DNA of 64,000 bases. It comes from Acidobacteria bacterium RIFCSPLOWO2_12_FULL_68_19 (GTDB taxonomy: Bacteria > Acidobacteriota > Vicinamibacteria > Vicinamibacterales > UBA2999). Under the pieces are notes generated by a model that saw only the letters and a program-made list of their open reading frames with translations, was not told where the DNA came from and made no database searches. Within the stretch, counting starts at the first letter, position 1; each line of letters starts with the position of its first letter. Position numbers and translations under genes: made by a program. Location: positions 55,825 through 119,824 of the forward strand of contig MELF01000039.1 in assembly GCA_001767525.1 (NCBI GenBank), read 5' to 3'. Shown piece by piece: positions 1,361-37,604 of the stretch.

Positions 1361-2884
1361 TCAGGCGCCGGACGAGCAGGCGCCCTCGAGCACGTCCTTG
1401 AGCAGGACTTCCCCCTGGAGGCCGGTGCGGACGTCCTCCCGCACGGCCTGCCCCGGCTTCTTGACGATGAACGGGATGTGCAGCGGGTCGCGCTCGCGTC
1501 CACCGAATCGGTATCCGTGATCCGCCAGCACGACGAGCGTCGTCCGGTCGTACACGCCGGCGCGCTCCAGGACGGCAACGAGATCTCCTACGATGCGGTC
1601 CACGTACTCCACCTGGCGGACGTACGCCGCATCGGGCGATGTCTGGAGTGGATCGAACGGGGGATCGTACCCTTCCGCGTCGAACACGAACGGGAGGTGC
1701 GGCACGCTGAAGTGGACGAACCGGAATACCGGCGGCCGCTCCGTCGTCGGCCGGCGGGCGAATGCGACCAGCTCATTGACGAGTTCCCGCTGATGCGCAG
1801 CAAACGGCGGATTCTTCAGCAGACCGAACGGGAGCTGACGCGGCCAGAGAACAAACGTTGTCCGCAGAGGATCGAAGAGGGAGAACGCTTCCGGCGCCGA
1901 GACGTTGTAGAAGCTGCGCGAACGGCACGTATCGGCCAGCTCCGCCAGCATGTCGCAATAGGCGAGATAGTAGCCGGCCATCTCCGTCCGGAACCCCAGG
2001 CGGCGCGCCGTGCCGAAGAGGCCGTCCGGCGTGGCAGCCCGAAACGGGGTGAGCGAGCCGTCGTCCTGGCGCTCCAGTAACCCGCCGTCGTCCACTTCGA
2101 TCTCACGCACGCGTCGGGCCGCGAGAAACGACGGCAGCGCGTCTCGCGTTTCGCGCCCCGGCGCGCCGACCGACAGGTAGTGCGTCGCCCGGGAGCCGAG
2201 CCGGCCAAGCGCCGGCAACTCGCGCCGGATACGCTCAGCGTCGTCGTACACGTAGGAGAAGGACAACTCGTCGAAGAGCAACGCCAGCACCGGTGCACAC
2301 GTCCGCTCGAGGGCGGCGGTGACGGCCGGCTCCCGATCAATCCGCACCACGACGTCCGCCCGCGCGACGGATGCACCGAGATTCGCGAGCACGACGAGCG
2401 ACACCGGCGAGACGAGCACGAGCAGCCGGCGGAACCACCGGCCGAACACCGCCGGCCAGAGGAGGAGCGTCATCGCGGCCGCGACGGCCACCAGAACCGA
2501 CGCGCCGAGATCGAGCGCGCGATTTTCGCCAATCGCGATGAGCGCTTCCTGGTACGGGAGCTGCCGCGACAGGCCGGCGGCAAACGACGCCAGCGGCAGG
2601 ATACTGATGAGCACCAGCGTGGCGGTGGCAAGCCGCGTGGAACGCGGCCAGACGGCGAACACGATCCCCGCACAGGCGGTCGCCAGCACCGCCAGCACGG
2701 CCGCCGTCTCGGCCAGATCGGCGGTCTGCCACTGGAGGTAATAGATGTCGAAGGTGACTGCCGCGGCGAGCGGATAAAAGAAGAGCGCGGCGAGCGCGAG
2801 GCCCAGCCACGCAGAGACGACGACCCGCCGCGTAAGGGTCAGACCCCGGTGACGAGTCGGCTCAAGCCTTCGAAGCGGCCTCAA
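1361..2884 (-). CDS. membrane-anchored sulfatase-like hydrolase/transferase
   Basis: 507 residues from a TTG start. Four to five hydrophobic segments occupy roughly residues 22-185, followed by an alkaline-phosphatase/sulfatase fold domain. Visible marks are PVLALLFDELSF near 197 (first metal aspartate region), FVHFSVPHLPFVF near 392, and LVVLADHGYRFGG near 455 with HIPFIVKKPG near 474. The plan resembles membrane phosphoethanolamine/phosphoglycerol transferases and related sulfatase-superfamily envelope enzymes; the real substrate is not evident. Its TTG start overlaps the TGA of the small upstream gene (TTGA) and lies inside the loop of a long palindrome, so the present start was probably created by repeat insertion and the native start may have been different. 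Confidence 0.75.
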   Translation of the reverse strand: MRPLRRLEPTRHRGLTLTRRVVVSAWLGLALAALFFYPLAAAVTFDIYYLQWQTADLAETAAVLAVLATACAGIVFAVWPRSTRLATATLVLISILPLASFAAGLSRQLPYQEALIAIGENRALDLGASVLVAVAAAMTLLLWPAVFGRWFRRLLVLVSPVSLVVLANLGASVARADVVVRIDREPAVTAALERTCAPVLALLFDELSFSYVYDDAERIRRELPALGRLGSRATHYLSVGAPGRETRDALPSFLAARRVREIEVDDGGLLERQDDGSLTPFRAATPDGLFGTARRLGFRTEMAGYYLAYCDMLAELADTCRSRSFYNVSAPEAFSLFDPLRTTFVLWPRQLPFGLLKNPPFAAHQRELVNELVAFARRPTTERPPVFRFVHFSVPHLPFVFDAEGYDPPFDPLQTSPDAAYVRQVEYVDRIVGDLVAVLERAGVYDRTTLVVLADHGYRFGGRERDPLHIPFIVKKPGQAVREDVRTGLQGEVLLKDVLEGACSSGA

Positions 2885-2919
2885 GAACCTTGAGTGGACT
2901 CGTCACCGGGGTCTGACCC
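2836..2919. repeat. GGGTCAGACCCC-type palindromic repeat (REP-like), 23-bp perfect arms
   Basis: GGGTCAGACCCCGGTGACGA... at 2836-2858 is the exact reverse complement of 2897-2919. After a 2-bp mismatch the stem continues with CTCAAG/CTTGAG (2861-2866 and 2889-2894), so the whole 84-bp element can fold back on itself. It carries the 3' end of the small gene at 2881-3120 and the 5' end of the sulfatase-like gene. The core GGTCAGACCCC is shared with the element inside priA (11451-11485). Known elements of this style are often linked to RAYT (Y1) transposases; none is in the window. Confidence 0.85.
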
Positions 2920-3120
2920 CCGACCATCGCCGCCGCGACCGCCCAGCCGCTTCACGAAGTGCACGATCGACCCGCGCACGCGGCGGAACACCAGCCCGAG
3001 CCCCAGGACAATTGTCAAAGCGGTCTGGTAGAGCAGGCTCCCCGTGCCCGGATCGACGTAGGCGAAGGCGGCACGCTCGCCCAGCAGGACCATCGCAACC
3101 GTGAGGATGGGGATCAGCAC
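2881..3120 (-). CDS. small membrane protein upstream of the sulfatase
   Basis: 79 residues from a GTG start. A hydrophobic N-terminus (ILTVAMVLLG) is followed by AYVDPGTGSLLYQ, a motif that recurs in short bacterial membrane proteins of unknown function, then a second hydrophobic stretch (ALTIVLGLGLVF) and a basic segment. The last 12 or so residues (GSDPGDES...) are encoded by the palindromic repeat, so the original C-terminus has probably been replaced. It overlaps the sulfatase-like gene by 4 bp, which suggests coupled translation and a shared envelope role. No function can be assigned. Confidence 0.65.
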   Translation of the reverse strand: MLIPILTVAMVLLGERAAFAYVDPGTGSLLYQTALTIVLGLGLVFRRVRGSIVHFVKRLGGRGGDGRGSDPGDESTQGS

Positions 3121-4922: not shown

Positions 4923-6143
4923 CTAGCGACGGGCGACGTTCCGATAGATCGTCCCGCCCTTCATCACGAACAGCACGCGGCGGAGGGCAGTGATGTCAAC
5001 GAGCGGGTCGCCGTCGACGGCAATCAGGTCGGCTTCCATGCCGGGCGCGATCGTTCCAATGCGATCCCCCAGCCCCAGCGCCTCGGCGCCGAGCGAGGTG
5101 ACTCCGGCTATTGCATCCGTCGGACGCTGCCCGCCCTCGCGAACGCGCGCGACCACTTCGTCGGCGTTGCGCCCGTGCGCGCCGGCGCCCGCGTCGGTCC
5201 CCATGACGATCTTGAGCTTCGGTTGCTGGAGGGCCTGCCTGAACGCCGCCAGATTGACCGGGACGGCGGCCTCCATGAACGCGAACCCCTTCTCGTCGAA
5301 GTTGCCAATCCCGAGATACCGCGGCTTGTTCCGGAGGTACTGCTGTATCACGACGCCAATGTTCGGCTCGAAGTACACGCCGCGCTCCGCCATGAGGGCG
5401 AACTCGGCTCTCGTGGCGTAGAAGCCGTGGGTGACGGCAAAGCAGCCTCCGCGAGCGGCCGCGGCCACCGCGCTCGCCGCATGGGCATGCACCCACGAGC
5501 GCTTGCCGAGCGCCCTGGCTTCGCCGCACACCGCCGCCACCTGCTCGTCGCTCATCGTCTGGCCGCCGCCTTCACGGATGCTCCTCGACGCAAACAGCTT
5601 GACGAGGTCGGCGCCGTCGGCGACCAGCTTCCGGACGCGCTGGCGCAGCTCGCCGGCCTCCAGCGCCGGGTCGGTCAACGGCTCGAGCGACGTGAGAAGG
5701 CGCGGGCCTGGAGCCCCGCGCTCGACGGCGGCGCGCAGTTCCCGATCGAGCGGCGCGCCGATGCTCTGTACCGTCGTGAATCCCGCGAGCAGCGTGTCGT
5801 AGCCGTTCTGCAGCGCGTGAAGCGTGCGCTCTGCCTCGCTCTCGCCGTCGTTCGACGCACGGCCGTCCCGGCCGTAGTGGGCGACGATATGGGCGTGTGT
5901 GTCGATCATGCCGGGCAACAGCGTGAGCCCGGCGAGGTCATAGGTGGCCGGTGCGCTCGAGCGGGGATCCACGCGCGTGATCCGCCCGCGCTCGACGGTG
6001 ACCGCAGCGTTCTGCAGCACGCCGCCGCGGCCATCAATGAGCCTGGCGGCGCGTATGACGATCGGTGCGTCCTGCGCGACGGAGGCTGCCGTCCCCGTGA
6101 GAACGGCGCACGCGGTCGAGAGCACGAGGCGCGTCAATCGCAT
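4923..6143 (-). CDS. exported metal-dependent amidohydrolase (imidazolonepropionase/prolidase-like)
   Basis: 406 residues from the ATG at MRLTRLVLST, which begins a signal peptide ending around SVAQ. Amidohydrolase-superfamily marks follow in order: LLPGMIDTHAHIVAH (HxH metal pair), GADLVKLFAS (candidate bridging lysine), WVHAHAA and AVTHGFYA (metal histidines), and MGTDAGAGAHG (metal aspartate). The C-terminus GTIAPGMEADLIAVDGDPL..I restores the beta-sandwich. Exported enzymes of this kind often cleave dipeptides or related amides; the substrate is not determined. The start codon lies 9 nt after the encoded CCA of tRNA-Pro with no Shine-Dalgarno, so its mRNA may be released by tRNA 3' processing. 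Confidence 0.88.
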   Translation of the reverse strand: MRLTRLVLSTACAVLTGTAASVAQDAPIVIRAARLIDGRGGVLQNAAVTVERGRITRVDPRSSAPATYDLAGLTLLPGMIDTHAHIVAHYGRDGRASNDGESEAERTLHALQNGYDTLLAGFTTVQSIGAPLDRELRAAVERGAPGPRLLTSLEPLTDPALEAGELRQRVRKLVADGADLVKLFASRSIREGGGQTMSDEQVAAVCGEARALGKRSWVHAHAASAVAAAARGGCFAVTHGFYATRAEFALMAERGVYFEPNIGVVIQQYLRNKPRYLGIGNFDEKGFAFMEAAVPVNLAAFRQALQQPKLKIVMGTDAGAGAHGRNADEVVARVREGGQRPTDAIAGVTSLGAEALGLGDRIGTIAPGMEADLIAVDGDPLVDITALRRVLFVMKGGTIYRNVARR

Positions 6144-6152
6144 CGGTGTAAG

Positions 6153-6229
6153 TGGTCGGGACGGCGAGATTCGAACTCGCGACCCCCTGAACCCCATTCA
6201 GGTGCGCTACCAGGCTGCGCTACGTCCCG
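6153..6229 (-). tRNA. tRNA-Pro (anticodon GGG)
   Basis: 77 nt with encoded CCA. Acceptor stem CGGGACG pairs with CGTCCCG, discriminator A, then CCA. The anticodon arm is CCTGA-ATGGGGT-TCAGG, giving anticodon GGG, and the T arm is GCGAG-TTCGAAT-CTCGC. It sits between the stop codon of the MerR-like gene (which ends one base before it) and the amidohydrolase start, all on the minus strand. Confidence 0.95.
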
Positions 6230-9566: not shown

Positions 9567-11849
9567 TCACAGTACGTTCAGCGGATCTACGTCGATGGTC
9601 ACGCGACGTTCGAGCCGCGGGTGCGCGGCCAGCGCATCCCGCAGAGCGCAGCGCATCGCCGCACGGCGGGTCCCCTTCAGGAAGAACTGCACGCGGTGCT
9701 CGCCCCGCAGCCGGCCAAGCGGCGCCGGCGCCGGACCCAGGACGATGAACGGCACATCTCTGGCGGGCGCATCGAGCTCACGCACGAGCGTTGCGGCGGC
9801 GCCGGCGGCGTCGGCGAACGTCCGCCCGCGAACGACCGCGTTGATGAGGGCCACAACCGGCGGGTAGCGCATGCTTCGGCGGTAGGCCAGTTCGCGCTCG
9901 AAGAACGTCGCATAGTCCTGGCGGCAGGCGACCTGGATGCTGTAGTGCTCCGGATAGAGCGTCTGGACAATCGCCTCGCCGGCGCGCTCGCCCCGTCCGG
10001 CCCGTCCCGCCACCTGCGTAAGCAGCTGGAACGTCCGTTCGGCGGCGCGGAAGTCCGCCAGACCGAGGCCGATATCGGCCGAAATCACGCCGACGAGCGT
10101 TACGCGCGGAAAGTCGTGTCCCTTCGCGATCATCTGCGTGCCGACGAGGATGTCGACCTCCCCGGCGGCGAACTTCGACAGCACCGTCGTGAGCGCACCC
10201 CTTCGCCTCACCGAATCGCGATCGACCCGGCGCACGCGCGCCTCCGGGAACAGCTCGATCAGGTGCTGCTCCACCTTTGCGGTGCCGACGCCCGCCTGCT
10301 CGAGGTATGGAGCGGCGCACTTCCGGCACGCCCGGGGCACGTCGTTCGAGTAGTTGCAGTAATGACAGCGGGCCTTCCACCGTCTCGACTCTTCGACACG
10401 TTCGGCATCGTGTCGAGCACGGCCGAGAGGCGGCGCCCCTCGGGACAAGCCGCTCGCCCTGTGCACGGTGAGCGAGACGCTGCAGTTCGGGCACTCGAAC
10501 GTGTCGCCGCACTGCCGGCAGAAGACCGCCGTCGAATAGCCGCGGCGATTGAGCAGCACGACCACCTGCTCGCGGCGGGAGAGTCGATCTCGGATCGCCG
10601 CGACCAGGGCACGGCTGACGATCACCTCGGGGCCCTGTTCGGCGTATTCCTCGCGCATGTTCACCAGGCGCACGCCGGCGAGGGACCGGTCCAGCACCCG
10701 GCGCTCGAGCGTCACCCGCGTGTACTTCCCGGCGGCCGCGTTCTGGTAGCTCTCGAGCGAGGGCGTGGCCGAACCGAGGACCACGAGCGCCCCTTCGGCC
10801 CTGGCGCGGACGATGGCGACGTCGCGGCCATGGTACCGGGGCGTCTCGTCCTGTTTGTAGGAGCTGTCCTGTTCCTCGTCCACGATGATGAGCCCGGTTC
10901 GTGCCAGCGGCGCGAATACCGCCGAGCGCGTGCCGACGACGACATCGACATCGCCGCGACGGATCCGCTGCCACTGGTCGTGCCGCTCGCCTCCGGAGAG
11001 CGCGCTGTGCTGAATCGCCACCCGCTCGCCGAACGCCGACCGCAGGAGCGCCGCGACCGACGGCGTGAGCGCGATTTCGGGCACGAGCAGCAGCACCTGC
11101 CGCCCCAGCCGGCAGACCTGCTCGGCCAGCCGCAGGTACACCTCCGTCTTGCCGCTGCCGGTCACGCCGTGCAGCAGCGCAACCTGGAACGTCCCAGTCT
11201 CGGCGAGCCGGGACAGCGTCGCCAGGGCCGCGTCCTGCTCACCCGTGAGCGCCCGGTCTGTGTCCCGGACAACGTCCGCCAGAGCTGCGCGCCCGAAAGG
11301 GTCGCGTTCGTCGCGCTCGGCGCGCATCGCCACCAGCCCGCGGACCGCCAGTCGGCGGAGCACGTCGGCGCCGACGCCGCGGTCCCGAAGGACCGACGCG
11401 GGCAGTCCGGCCGGCGCTGCCGCCAGCATCCCAAGCGCCTCGCGCTGCTGTGGGGTCAGACCCCGGCTTCCGGGGTCTGACCCCAGGTGCGGCGTCGCGG
11501 CGACGATCCGCCGTGTCTTGTAGCCGGACACCCGGCGGGACGTCGGCGGCAGGGCGACGCCAATCGCGTCGCCGATGCCCGCCATGTAGTACTCCGCCAC
11601 CCACTTGCACAGCTCGACGATCGCGGCCGGCAGGAACGGTTCGTGATCGAGGACCTCCTTCACGTCGCGCGTTTCGGTGTCGGGTCCTGCCGTCGGGTCG
11701 TGACCGATCACGCAGCCGACCAGGGTGCGTGTGCCGACCGGCACGCGCACCCGGGCGCCCACCGGCGGCAGATCCGGAAAACGATGCGGGACGTTGTAGG
11801 TCAGTGCATCCAGCCGGGGAACCGGGACGGCGACGGAGATGAGGCGCAC
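9567..11849 (-). CDS. priA: primosomal replication restart helicase PriA
   Basis: 760 residues from the GTG at VRLISVAVPVPRLDALTYNVP; the ORF-track extension is rejected. Domains in order: 3' DNA-binding domain (1-105), winged helix (about 105-220), SF2 helicase with HGVTGSGKTEVYLRL (Walker A), IIVDEEQDSSYKQ (DEAH-like box) and VLGSATPSLES, a zinc module (CRQCGDTFECPNC, then CHYC and CRKC), and the C-terminal domain. Two oddities: a GGGGTCAGACCCC palindrome encodes GSDPGSRGLTP in the linker before the winged helix, and about 20 extra residues (RASGLSRGAPPLGRARHD) separate the two halves of the zinc module. Both keep the frame, so the protein is probably functional. Confidence 0.95.
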   Translation of the reverse strand: MRLISVAVPVPRLDALTYNVPHRFPDLPPVGARVRVPVGTRTLVGCVIGHDPTAGPDTETRDVKEVLDHEPFLPAAIVELCKWVAEYYMAGIGDAIGVALPPTSRRVSGYKTRRIVAATPHLGSDPGSRGLTPQQREALGMLAAAPAGLPASVLRDRGVGADVLRRLAVRGLVAMRAERDERDPFGRAALADVVRDTDRALTGEQDAALATLSRLAETGTFQVALLHGVTGSGKTEVYLRLAEQVCRLGRQVLLLVPEIALTPSVAALLRSAFGERVAIQHSALSGGERHDQWQRIRRGDVDVVVGTRSAVFAPLARTGLIIVDEEQDSSYKQDETPRYHGRDVAIVRARAEGALVVLGSATPSLESYQNAAAGKYTRVTLERRVLDRSLAGVRLVNMREEYAEQGPEVIVSRALVAAIRDRLSRREQVVVLLNRRGYSTAVFCRQCGDTFECPNCSVSLTVHRASGLSRGAPPLGRARHDAERVEESRRWKARCHYCNYSNDVPRACRKCAAPYLEQAGVGTAKVEQHLIELFPEARVRRVDRDSVRRRGALTTVLSKFAAGEVDILVGTQMIAKGHDFPRVTLVGVISADIGLGLADFRAAERTFQLLTQVAGRAGRGERAGEAIVQTLYPEHYSIQVACRQDYATFFERELAYRRSMRYPPVVALINAVVRGRTFADAAGAAATLVRELDAPARDVPFIVLGPAPAPLGRLRGEHRVQFFLKGTRRAAMRCALRDALAAHPRLERRVTIDVDPLNVL
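11451..11485. repeat. perfect 16-bp-arm GGGGTCAGACCCC palindrome inside priA
   Basis: TGGGGTCAGACCCCGG, three bases CTT, then the exact reverse complement CCGGGGTCTGACCCCA. The 35-bp hairpin lies wholly inside the priA coding sequence and is read through in frame. Its core equals that of the 2836-2919 element. Confidence 0.9.
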
Positions 11850-37064: not shown

Positions 37065-37604
37065 TCAGCGCGCGGCGGGCTGCGCCACCTGCGCCGCGGG
37101 GGTCTGCGCCTGCGCGGGCGCCGCGGACGCGGATCGTGGCTGGACGGCCGGCTGCGGCGCGCCCTTGCGCTGCATGTCGACACTCCCGCGGAAATGCGCG
37201 CCGTCGGCGATCGCCACCCGCGGCGAGATGATGTCGCCGTCGACCGAGCCGCCGTCGCGAATCTCCACCTTTTCCGTTGCGCTGATGTTGCCGTGGACCT
37301 CGCCCTGCACGATCAGCGCCTTGGCAAATACCTGCGCCTTGATCTTGCCGTTCGGACCGATGGTCAGCACGTTCTCCTTCAGCTCGATCTTGCCCTCGAC
37401 CTGCCCTTCGATGGTGAGGTCTTCGCTGCCGCTCAGCTCGCCCTTGATGACGACCGATTTCCCAATATTCACGACTTCCCTCCCGTGCTGCCGCGGCTCG
37501 GGCTGCGAAGCCGACGGGCTGCCGCCAAGCTGACTCTGGACGGCCGATCCGGTCGAGGTCCCCGGGCCGCTCGTCGGTTTCACTGCTTCGTCACGTTTCC
37601 ACAT
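37065..37604 (-). CDS. bactofilin
   Basis: 179 residues from the ATG with GGAGG 8 nt upstream. The beta-helical DUF583 core spans about residues 45-140: NIGKSVVIKGELSGSEDLTIEGQVEGKIEL, LTIGPNGKIKAQVFAKALIVQGEVHGNI, KVEIRDGGSVDGDIISPRVAIADGAHFRGSV. Pro/Ala/Gln-rich disordered tails flank it. Bactofilins polymerise without nucleotide into membrane-associated filaments used in cell shape and envelope synthesis. TATACT on the minus strand (37692-37697) is a candidate -10. Confidence 0.94.
   Translation of the reverse strand: MWKRDEAVKPTSGPGTSTGSAVQSQLGGSPSASQPEPRQHGREVVNIGKSVVIKGELSGSEDLTIEGQVEGKIELKENVLTIGPNGKIKAQVFAKALIVQGEVHGNISATEKVEIRDGGSVDGDIISPRVAIADGAHFRGSVDMQRKGAPQPAVQPRSASAAPAQAQTPAAQVAQPAAR

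Follow-up and report, generated by a model that had tools for sequence, protein, structure and literature searches.

A dispersed palindromic repeat carries the stop codon of one gene and the putative start codon of the next in an Acidobacteriota genome

Introduction

Mobile palindromes near RAYT genes, REP ends that provide stop codons, and palindromes that are read inside proteins are already known. In the parts of the literature on which we draw here, RAYT-like genes are described as flanked by terminal inverted repeats (TIRs), some of which have the motif GGGGWSAS in common, and one of the transposase groups is confined to Acidobacteria (Di Nocera et al. 2013, PMC3733652). The same parts report that REP ends supply stop codons to flanking ORFs and that a REP close to a stop codon reduces translation in E. 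coli (PMC3733652; PMC12306157 citing Liang 2015), and that translation can terminate and reinitiate at 4-nt overlaps between genes (PMC6728339). An upstream ribosome has been described to unfold structure at a downstream start site, while structure located just downstream of a stop codon can reduce coupling (PMC12548453). Here, we describe an 84-nt palindrome in which two neighbouring genes meet (Table 1), and compare it with its copies in the same genome and in related genomes.

Table 1 Positions of the repeat copies and of the genes and codons at the junctions
Feature	Location	Strand	Details
Mobile palindromic repeat, full-length copy, 84 nt	2836..2919	-	31-nt arms and 22-nt loop
5' arm on the mRNA strand	2889..2919	-	encodes GSDPGDESTQ in the last part of the small ORF
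3' arm on the mRNA strand	2836..2866	-	encodes new N-terminal residues of the sulfatase, ending ..RHRGLT
TTGA overlap	2881..2884	-	the sulfatase ORF begins (TTG) and the small ORF stops (TGA) within the loop
Small conserved membrane-protein gene (..YVDPGTGSLLYQ..)	2881..3120	-	upstream member of the pair; conserved before the same sulfatase in G005, G010, G013 and G023
Sulfatase-like membrane protein gene	1361..2884	-	downstream member of the pair; PF00884, E 7.9e-13
Ancestral sulfatase start-codon position	2834..2836	-	ATG/GTG in relatives; here CTT, then ACG CGG CGG
Second repeat copy, 31 nt, in frame within priA	11453..11483	-	encodes GSDPGSRGLTP
Junction copy	C2:18684		FAD_binding_3/ICMT
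Junction copy	C33:21253		NMT1_3/DctM
Junction copy	C33:32283		unnamed gene/FAD_binding_2
Junction copy	C28:1728		ABC/ABC

Results

No other inverted repeat of its size in the window (the whole 64-kb stretch of DNA analysed) comes close to the palindrome. Its arms are 94% complementary, the outer 23 bp being perfect, and as RNA it folds with −71.8 kcal/mol compared with −40.0 ± 3.2 kcal/mol for shuffled sequences (z −9.9). A search of Rfam returned no family matching at the palindrome, and a search for intrinsic terminators near the junction returned no terminator-like site. On the minus strand, the small ORF ends GSDPGDESTQGS-TGA within the palindrome, and the sulfatase-like ORF begins at a TTG that overlaps this TGA. 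The initial annotation had placed a palindrome with 23-bp arms here, with the tail of the small protein and the N-terminus of the sulfatase encoded in the arms and the stop/start overlap in the loop, and our analysis bears this out on each point.

The element contains a TGA in the sulfatase frame, upstream of the TTG. No other ATG, GTG or TTG is therefore available before the ancestral start position, and further along the frame a GTG follows only at codon 63 of the ORF, about 46 codons past the element. The bases of the TTG have computed probabilities of being unpaired of 0.007–0.065, and opening the region from −20 to +12 around the start is calculated to cost 32.5 kcal/mol, compared with 14.7, 20.6, 22.3, and 26.4 kcal/mol in the four relatives compared below. 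Near the TTG there is only a weak AAGG, which is itself paired. The sulfatase ORF is intact over its 507 codons, retains 58–61% identity to relatives along its length together with the Pfam sulfatase domain, and has a normal coding score. Elsewhere in the window, the longest reading of an amidohydrolase ORF (4923–6197) begins within a tRNA gene (6156–6229, minus strand); the true start of this ORF is probably a later ATG (MRLTRLVL..).

Sulfatase orthologues are present in nine other genomes of the family (52–63% identity, E below 1e-60). In G005, G010, G013, and G023, the small gene lies directly before the sulfatase, and the junction has neither the arms nor a match to the covariance model of the repeat described below. 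In these relatives, the sulfatase starts with ATG or GTG immediately ahead of the ..RR...SAWLG.. region: the starts of G005, G013, and G023 are homologous to the CTT that abuts the end of the element here, and the ATG of G010 sits four codons further in. With the ancestral codon changed to CTT, a stretch of about 60 codons has no canonical start other than the TTG in the loop. The empty junction in relatives and the loss of the native start together argue that the repeat was inserted on the gene junction, as the initial annotation had suggested, and that it took the junction over and now provides both the stop codon of the small gene and the putative start codon of the sulfatase. By this comparison, the repeat appears to have removed the native sulfatase start and would extend the N-terminus by about 16 residues. 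The sulfatase was not found in the one same-genus relative; the empty sites therefore come from other genera (58–61% protein identity), at which distance the exact bases inserted and lost cannot be fixed.

The initial annotation had further suggested that the repeat rewired the coupling of the two genes. The small gene and the sulfatase already overlap in a GTGA in G005 and are separated by 11 nt in G013 and G023 and by 28 nt in G010, all without the arms, and the tight spacing thus appears to predate the repeat. The relatives therefore share the gene pair and its tight spacing, which speaks against the repeat having created the coupling, while the TTGA itself is absent from all of them.

The palindrome belongs to a family of dispersed repeats. 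The repeat end is the near-palindromic GGGTC[A/T]GACCC(C) of 11–12 nt, and the exact 12-mer core has 44 matches on both strands of the 4.21-Mb genome compared with 0 for the reversed control. These matches group into about 31 loci, mostly inverted pairs of cores, with copy lengths of 23, 31, 35, 40, 44, 68, 75, and 83–84 nt; at some loci there is only one core, and chance matches in genes may account for a few of these. The long copies have internal sequence in common, and among four of them four base pairs are changed on both sides, i.e., in a compensatory manner. With a covariance model built on the long form, copies were detected in 10 of the 59 related genomes searched, and the bare core is patchily distributed, occurring in 59 of 99 genomes. 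With two inverted cores in elements of 23–84 nt, the repeat shares with REPINs and BIMEs the arrangement of short palindromes in inverted orientation; the copies read were also inspected for the unpaired GTAG or CGTC tag of tagged REPs, and no conserved tag was seen beside them.

The genome has one Y1 (HUH) tyrosine transposase gene (C5:36744–37079; Pfam Y1_Tnp above cut-off), the translation of which carries the HVH and Tyr motifs and matches NCBIfam REP_Tyr_transpos with E 9.5e-21 and 74.2 bits, the NCBIfam cut-off being 80. A 23-nt double core lies on each side of this gene (C5:36459–36481 and 37245–37267), at distances of about 265 and 165 nt to the matched Y1 domain. Likewise, Y1/RAYT genes of G014, G015, G078, and G091 have a core or model match within about 320 nt; in several copy-rich genomes (G031, G058) a search for a RAYT match found none. 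We infer that this RAYT-like transposase mobilises the repeat. As a separate observation, the transposase gene (L017 1496–2140, minus strand; genome C5) has its own stop codon inside a flanking copy of the repeat.

Four more copies lie between same-strand genes in this genome; each holds the stop codon of the upstream gene as well as a start codon for the downstream one. Unlike at the sulfatase junction, the downstream frames at these four junctions are open upstream of the element, so that other starts are possible; the repeat would have taken over both stop and start at up to four further junctions. The DctM and FAD_binding_2 junctions have empty sites in the same-genus genome G001 (85–86% protein identity); there, the genes overlap in a GTGA, which is replaced by the element here, and the ancestral GTG is now CCC. 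A target-site duplication, a mark of MITEs, was sought at these two sites, and we found host bases replaced and no clear duplication. The ICMT junction is an ATGA overlap in two relatives. At all five junctions, one and the same frame of the repeat leads into the downstream gene (..GLTP or ..GLTL).

Two further features were seen at these junctions. In L038 around 1501–1583 (C33:32283–32365), a perfect inversion of the host flanks continues for 15 nt past the repeat, where the same-genus relative has a different right flank; this looks like an extension of the palindrome by template switching. In two other genera, the FAD/ICMT junction (L155 and L157, upstream of base 1501 on the gene strand; L045) contains different palindromic repeats, of the GTACGTAGTG..GGCCCGGCT type and GGGCGGGGCGTTACGCCCCGCC, and in G013 the former type is also present before the small gene. 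It may be that unrelated palindromes accumulate at operon junctions.

Copies within conserved protein genes are read in a shared frame, as seen for PriA and QueG in relatives and for priA in the window. Genes of other genera, priA and queG among them, contain 64-nt copies that are read in a single frame and insert 22 residues. The in-frame priA copies occur in three genera, apparently at the same site before QREAL/KQSQAIEAL, and those other than the copy in the window (L109 residues 120–141; L120 residues 124–145) have the 22-residue form. In queG, the copies of three genomes (G015, G003, and G027; L111, L121, and L142) share a single site inside the DUF1730 domain and add about 22–24 residues. 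Altogether, 18 intragenic copies in other genomes are read through without a stop, most of them as GSDP...GLTP. A triple-core copy (C17:107491–107525) lies in frame within a GidA-family (PF01134) gene and encodes GSDPGSDPGSDP.

Discussion

Our results make it likely that a RAYT-associated mobile repeat entered the junction, where it took the place of the native stop and start, and that the sulfatase is now translated from the TTG by translational coupling. In this model, a repeat of the TIR kind would have inserted between the small membrane-protein gene and the sulfatase gene, replacing the end of the former and the start codon of the latter, after which the first gene would end and the second begin inside the repeat. 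Both genes would remain readable because the repeat has open frames, its own TGA, and its own start codons. In the mRNA, the hairpin would bury the TTG and, since the only AAGG nearby is weak and paired, de novo initiation would be poor and the sulfatase would depend on ribosomes from the small gene. A ribosome translating the small gene would open the 5' arm, halt at the TGA, and restart at the overlapping TTG. Based on the predicted fold, sulfatase translation probably relies on ribosomes that finish the small gene, with little independent initiation, and control of sulfatase initiation by the hairpin, as suggested by the initial annotation, is plausible. Because structure just past a stop can lower coupling (PMC12548453), a net loss of sulfatase output is equally possible.

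An alternative is that the TTG is unused, either because translation begins at a non-canonical start, e.g., the CTG in GGTCTGACC, or because the insertion silenced the sulfatase gene, which would now be decaying. The loss of the ancestral start, the deep pairing of the TTG, and the weak ribosome-binding site agree with this idea; however, the intact and normally scoring ORF, with its sulfatase domain and full-length similarity to relatives, makes it unlikely in our opinion.

Restart at the TTG by coupling, as we propose for this one junction, could be extended to a much broader model in which the repeat is a mobile stop–start cassette that prefers GTGA/ATGA operon junctions, removes the native stop and start, imposes its own overlap and hairpin, and rewires the coupling of many operons. 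We regard this extension as doubtful. The narrower idea that the repeat targets stop/start overlaps, such that the junction copies are not due to chance, is similarly hard to uphold and we consider it improbable. By counts that rest on a simple codon-usage gene caller made for this analysis, 5 of the 31 loci have both codons in the repeat, compared with 1.3% of random positions lying near a tight same-strand junction (p 5e-5), and the ancestral DctM and FAD sites were GTGA overlaps. However, if only the non-coding background is considered, the share of such positions is 15% and 5 of 26 loci is not unusual (p 0.34), and none of the 40 copies read in other genomes carries both stop and start. 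Among the five longest copies, four are at such junctions, which remains unusual on the non-coding background (p 0.002). The result with the non-coding background together with the 0 of 40 copies elsewhere suggests that survival of harmless insertions largely explains the location of the repeat.

It might also be argued that the hairpin was kept by selection, as an evolved translational switch that ties expression of the sulfatase to that of the small protein. The structure is very stable, the start codon is paired, and unfolding by an upstream ribosome is a known model of coupling (PMC12548453); on the other hand, the same sequence is present at about 30 unrelated loci, no relative has conserved arms at the small gene/sulfatase junction, and the spacing compatible with coupling is older than the repeat, and we therefore find selection for such a switch improbable as well. 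That the palindrome is an assembly artefact or a chance palindrome is scarcely credible: metagenome assemblies can produce hairpins at contig ends, and we found no other support for this reading, while this palindrome is internal to a 120-kb contig with both genes reading into it, and homologues of it that show compensatory changes exist at independent loci and in independent genomes.

The insertion of a mobile repeat that we favour would provide a direct view of how a selfish palindrome replaces the punctuation between two genes while breaking neither, and the same-genus empty sites are natural before-and-after pairs for the effect of an inserted hairpin on translational coupling. A limited search of the open literature did not find a repeat family that takes over both stop and start of gene pairs and has same-genus empty sites; a literature search with the exact core sequence gave unrelated matches only.

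Among described systems, the repeat most resembles the TIRtrons and TIRYT-associated TIRs, which in the parts of PMC3733652 considered here comprise a RAYT-like gene flanked by inverted repeats, dispersed dimer copies, and an Acidobacteria-specific transposase group; the GGGGWSAS motif of those TIRs corresponds to GGGGTCAG in the core. It differs from them in its full-length copies of 83–84 nt and in copies that carry both a stop and a start, which those parts do not report. Similarly to REP, BIME, and REPIN elements, it consists of short palindromes arranged as inverted pairs near a RAYT-like gene, but no GTAG/CGTC tag was seen, and it occurs in tens rather than hundreds of copies, and also supplies start codons. 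The 4-nt stop/start overlap within an operon resembles the ATGA/TGATG overlaps of coupled genes (PMC12548453 and the part of PMC6728339 considered here), except that the overlap here lies within the loop of a mobile palindrome. Finally, in common with the Rickettsia palindromic elements (RPE), the repeat is palindromic selfish DNA that encodes a conserved peptide in frame in conserved proteins (GSDPGDGATQGLESPHHRGLTP in relatives). The repeat differs from RPE in its length of 64–84 nt compared with about 150 nt, in its occurrence in another phylum, and in its link to a RAYT-like gene. Thus, protein-coding palindromic repeats, best known from Rickettsia, extend to Acidobacteriota, where they have a plausible transposase partner.
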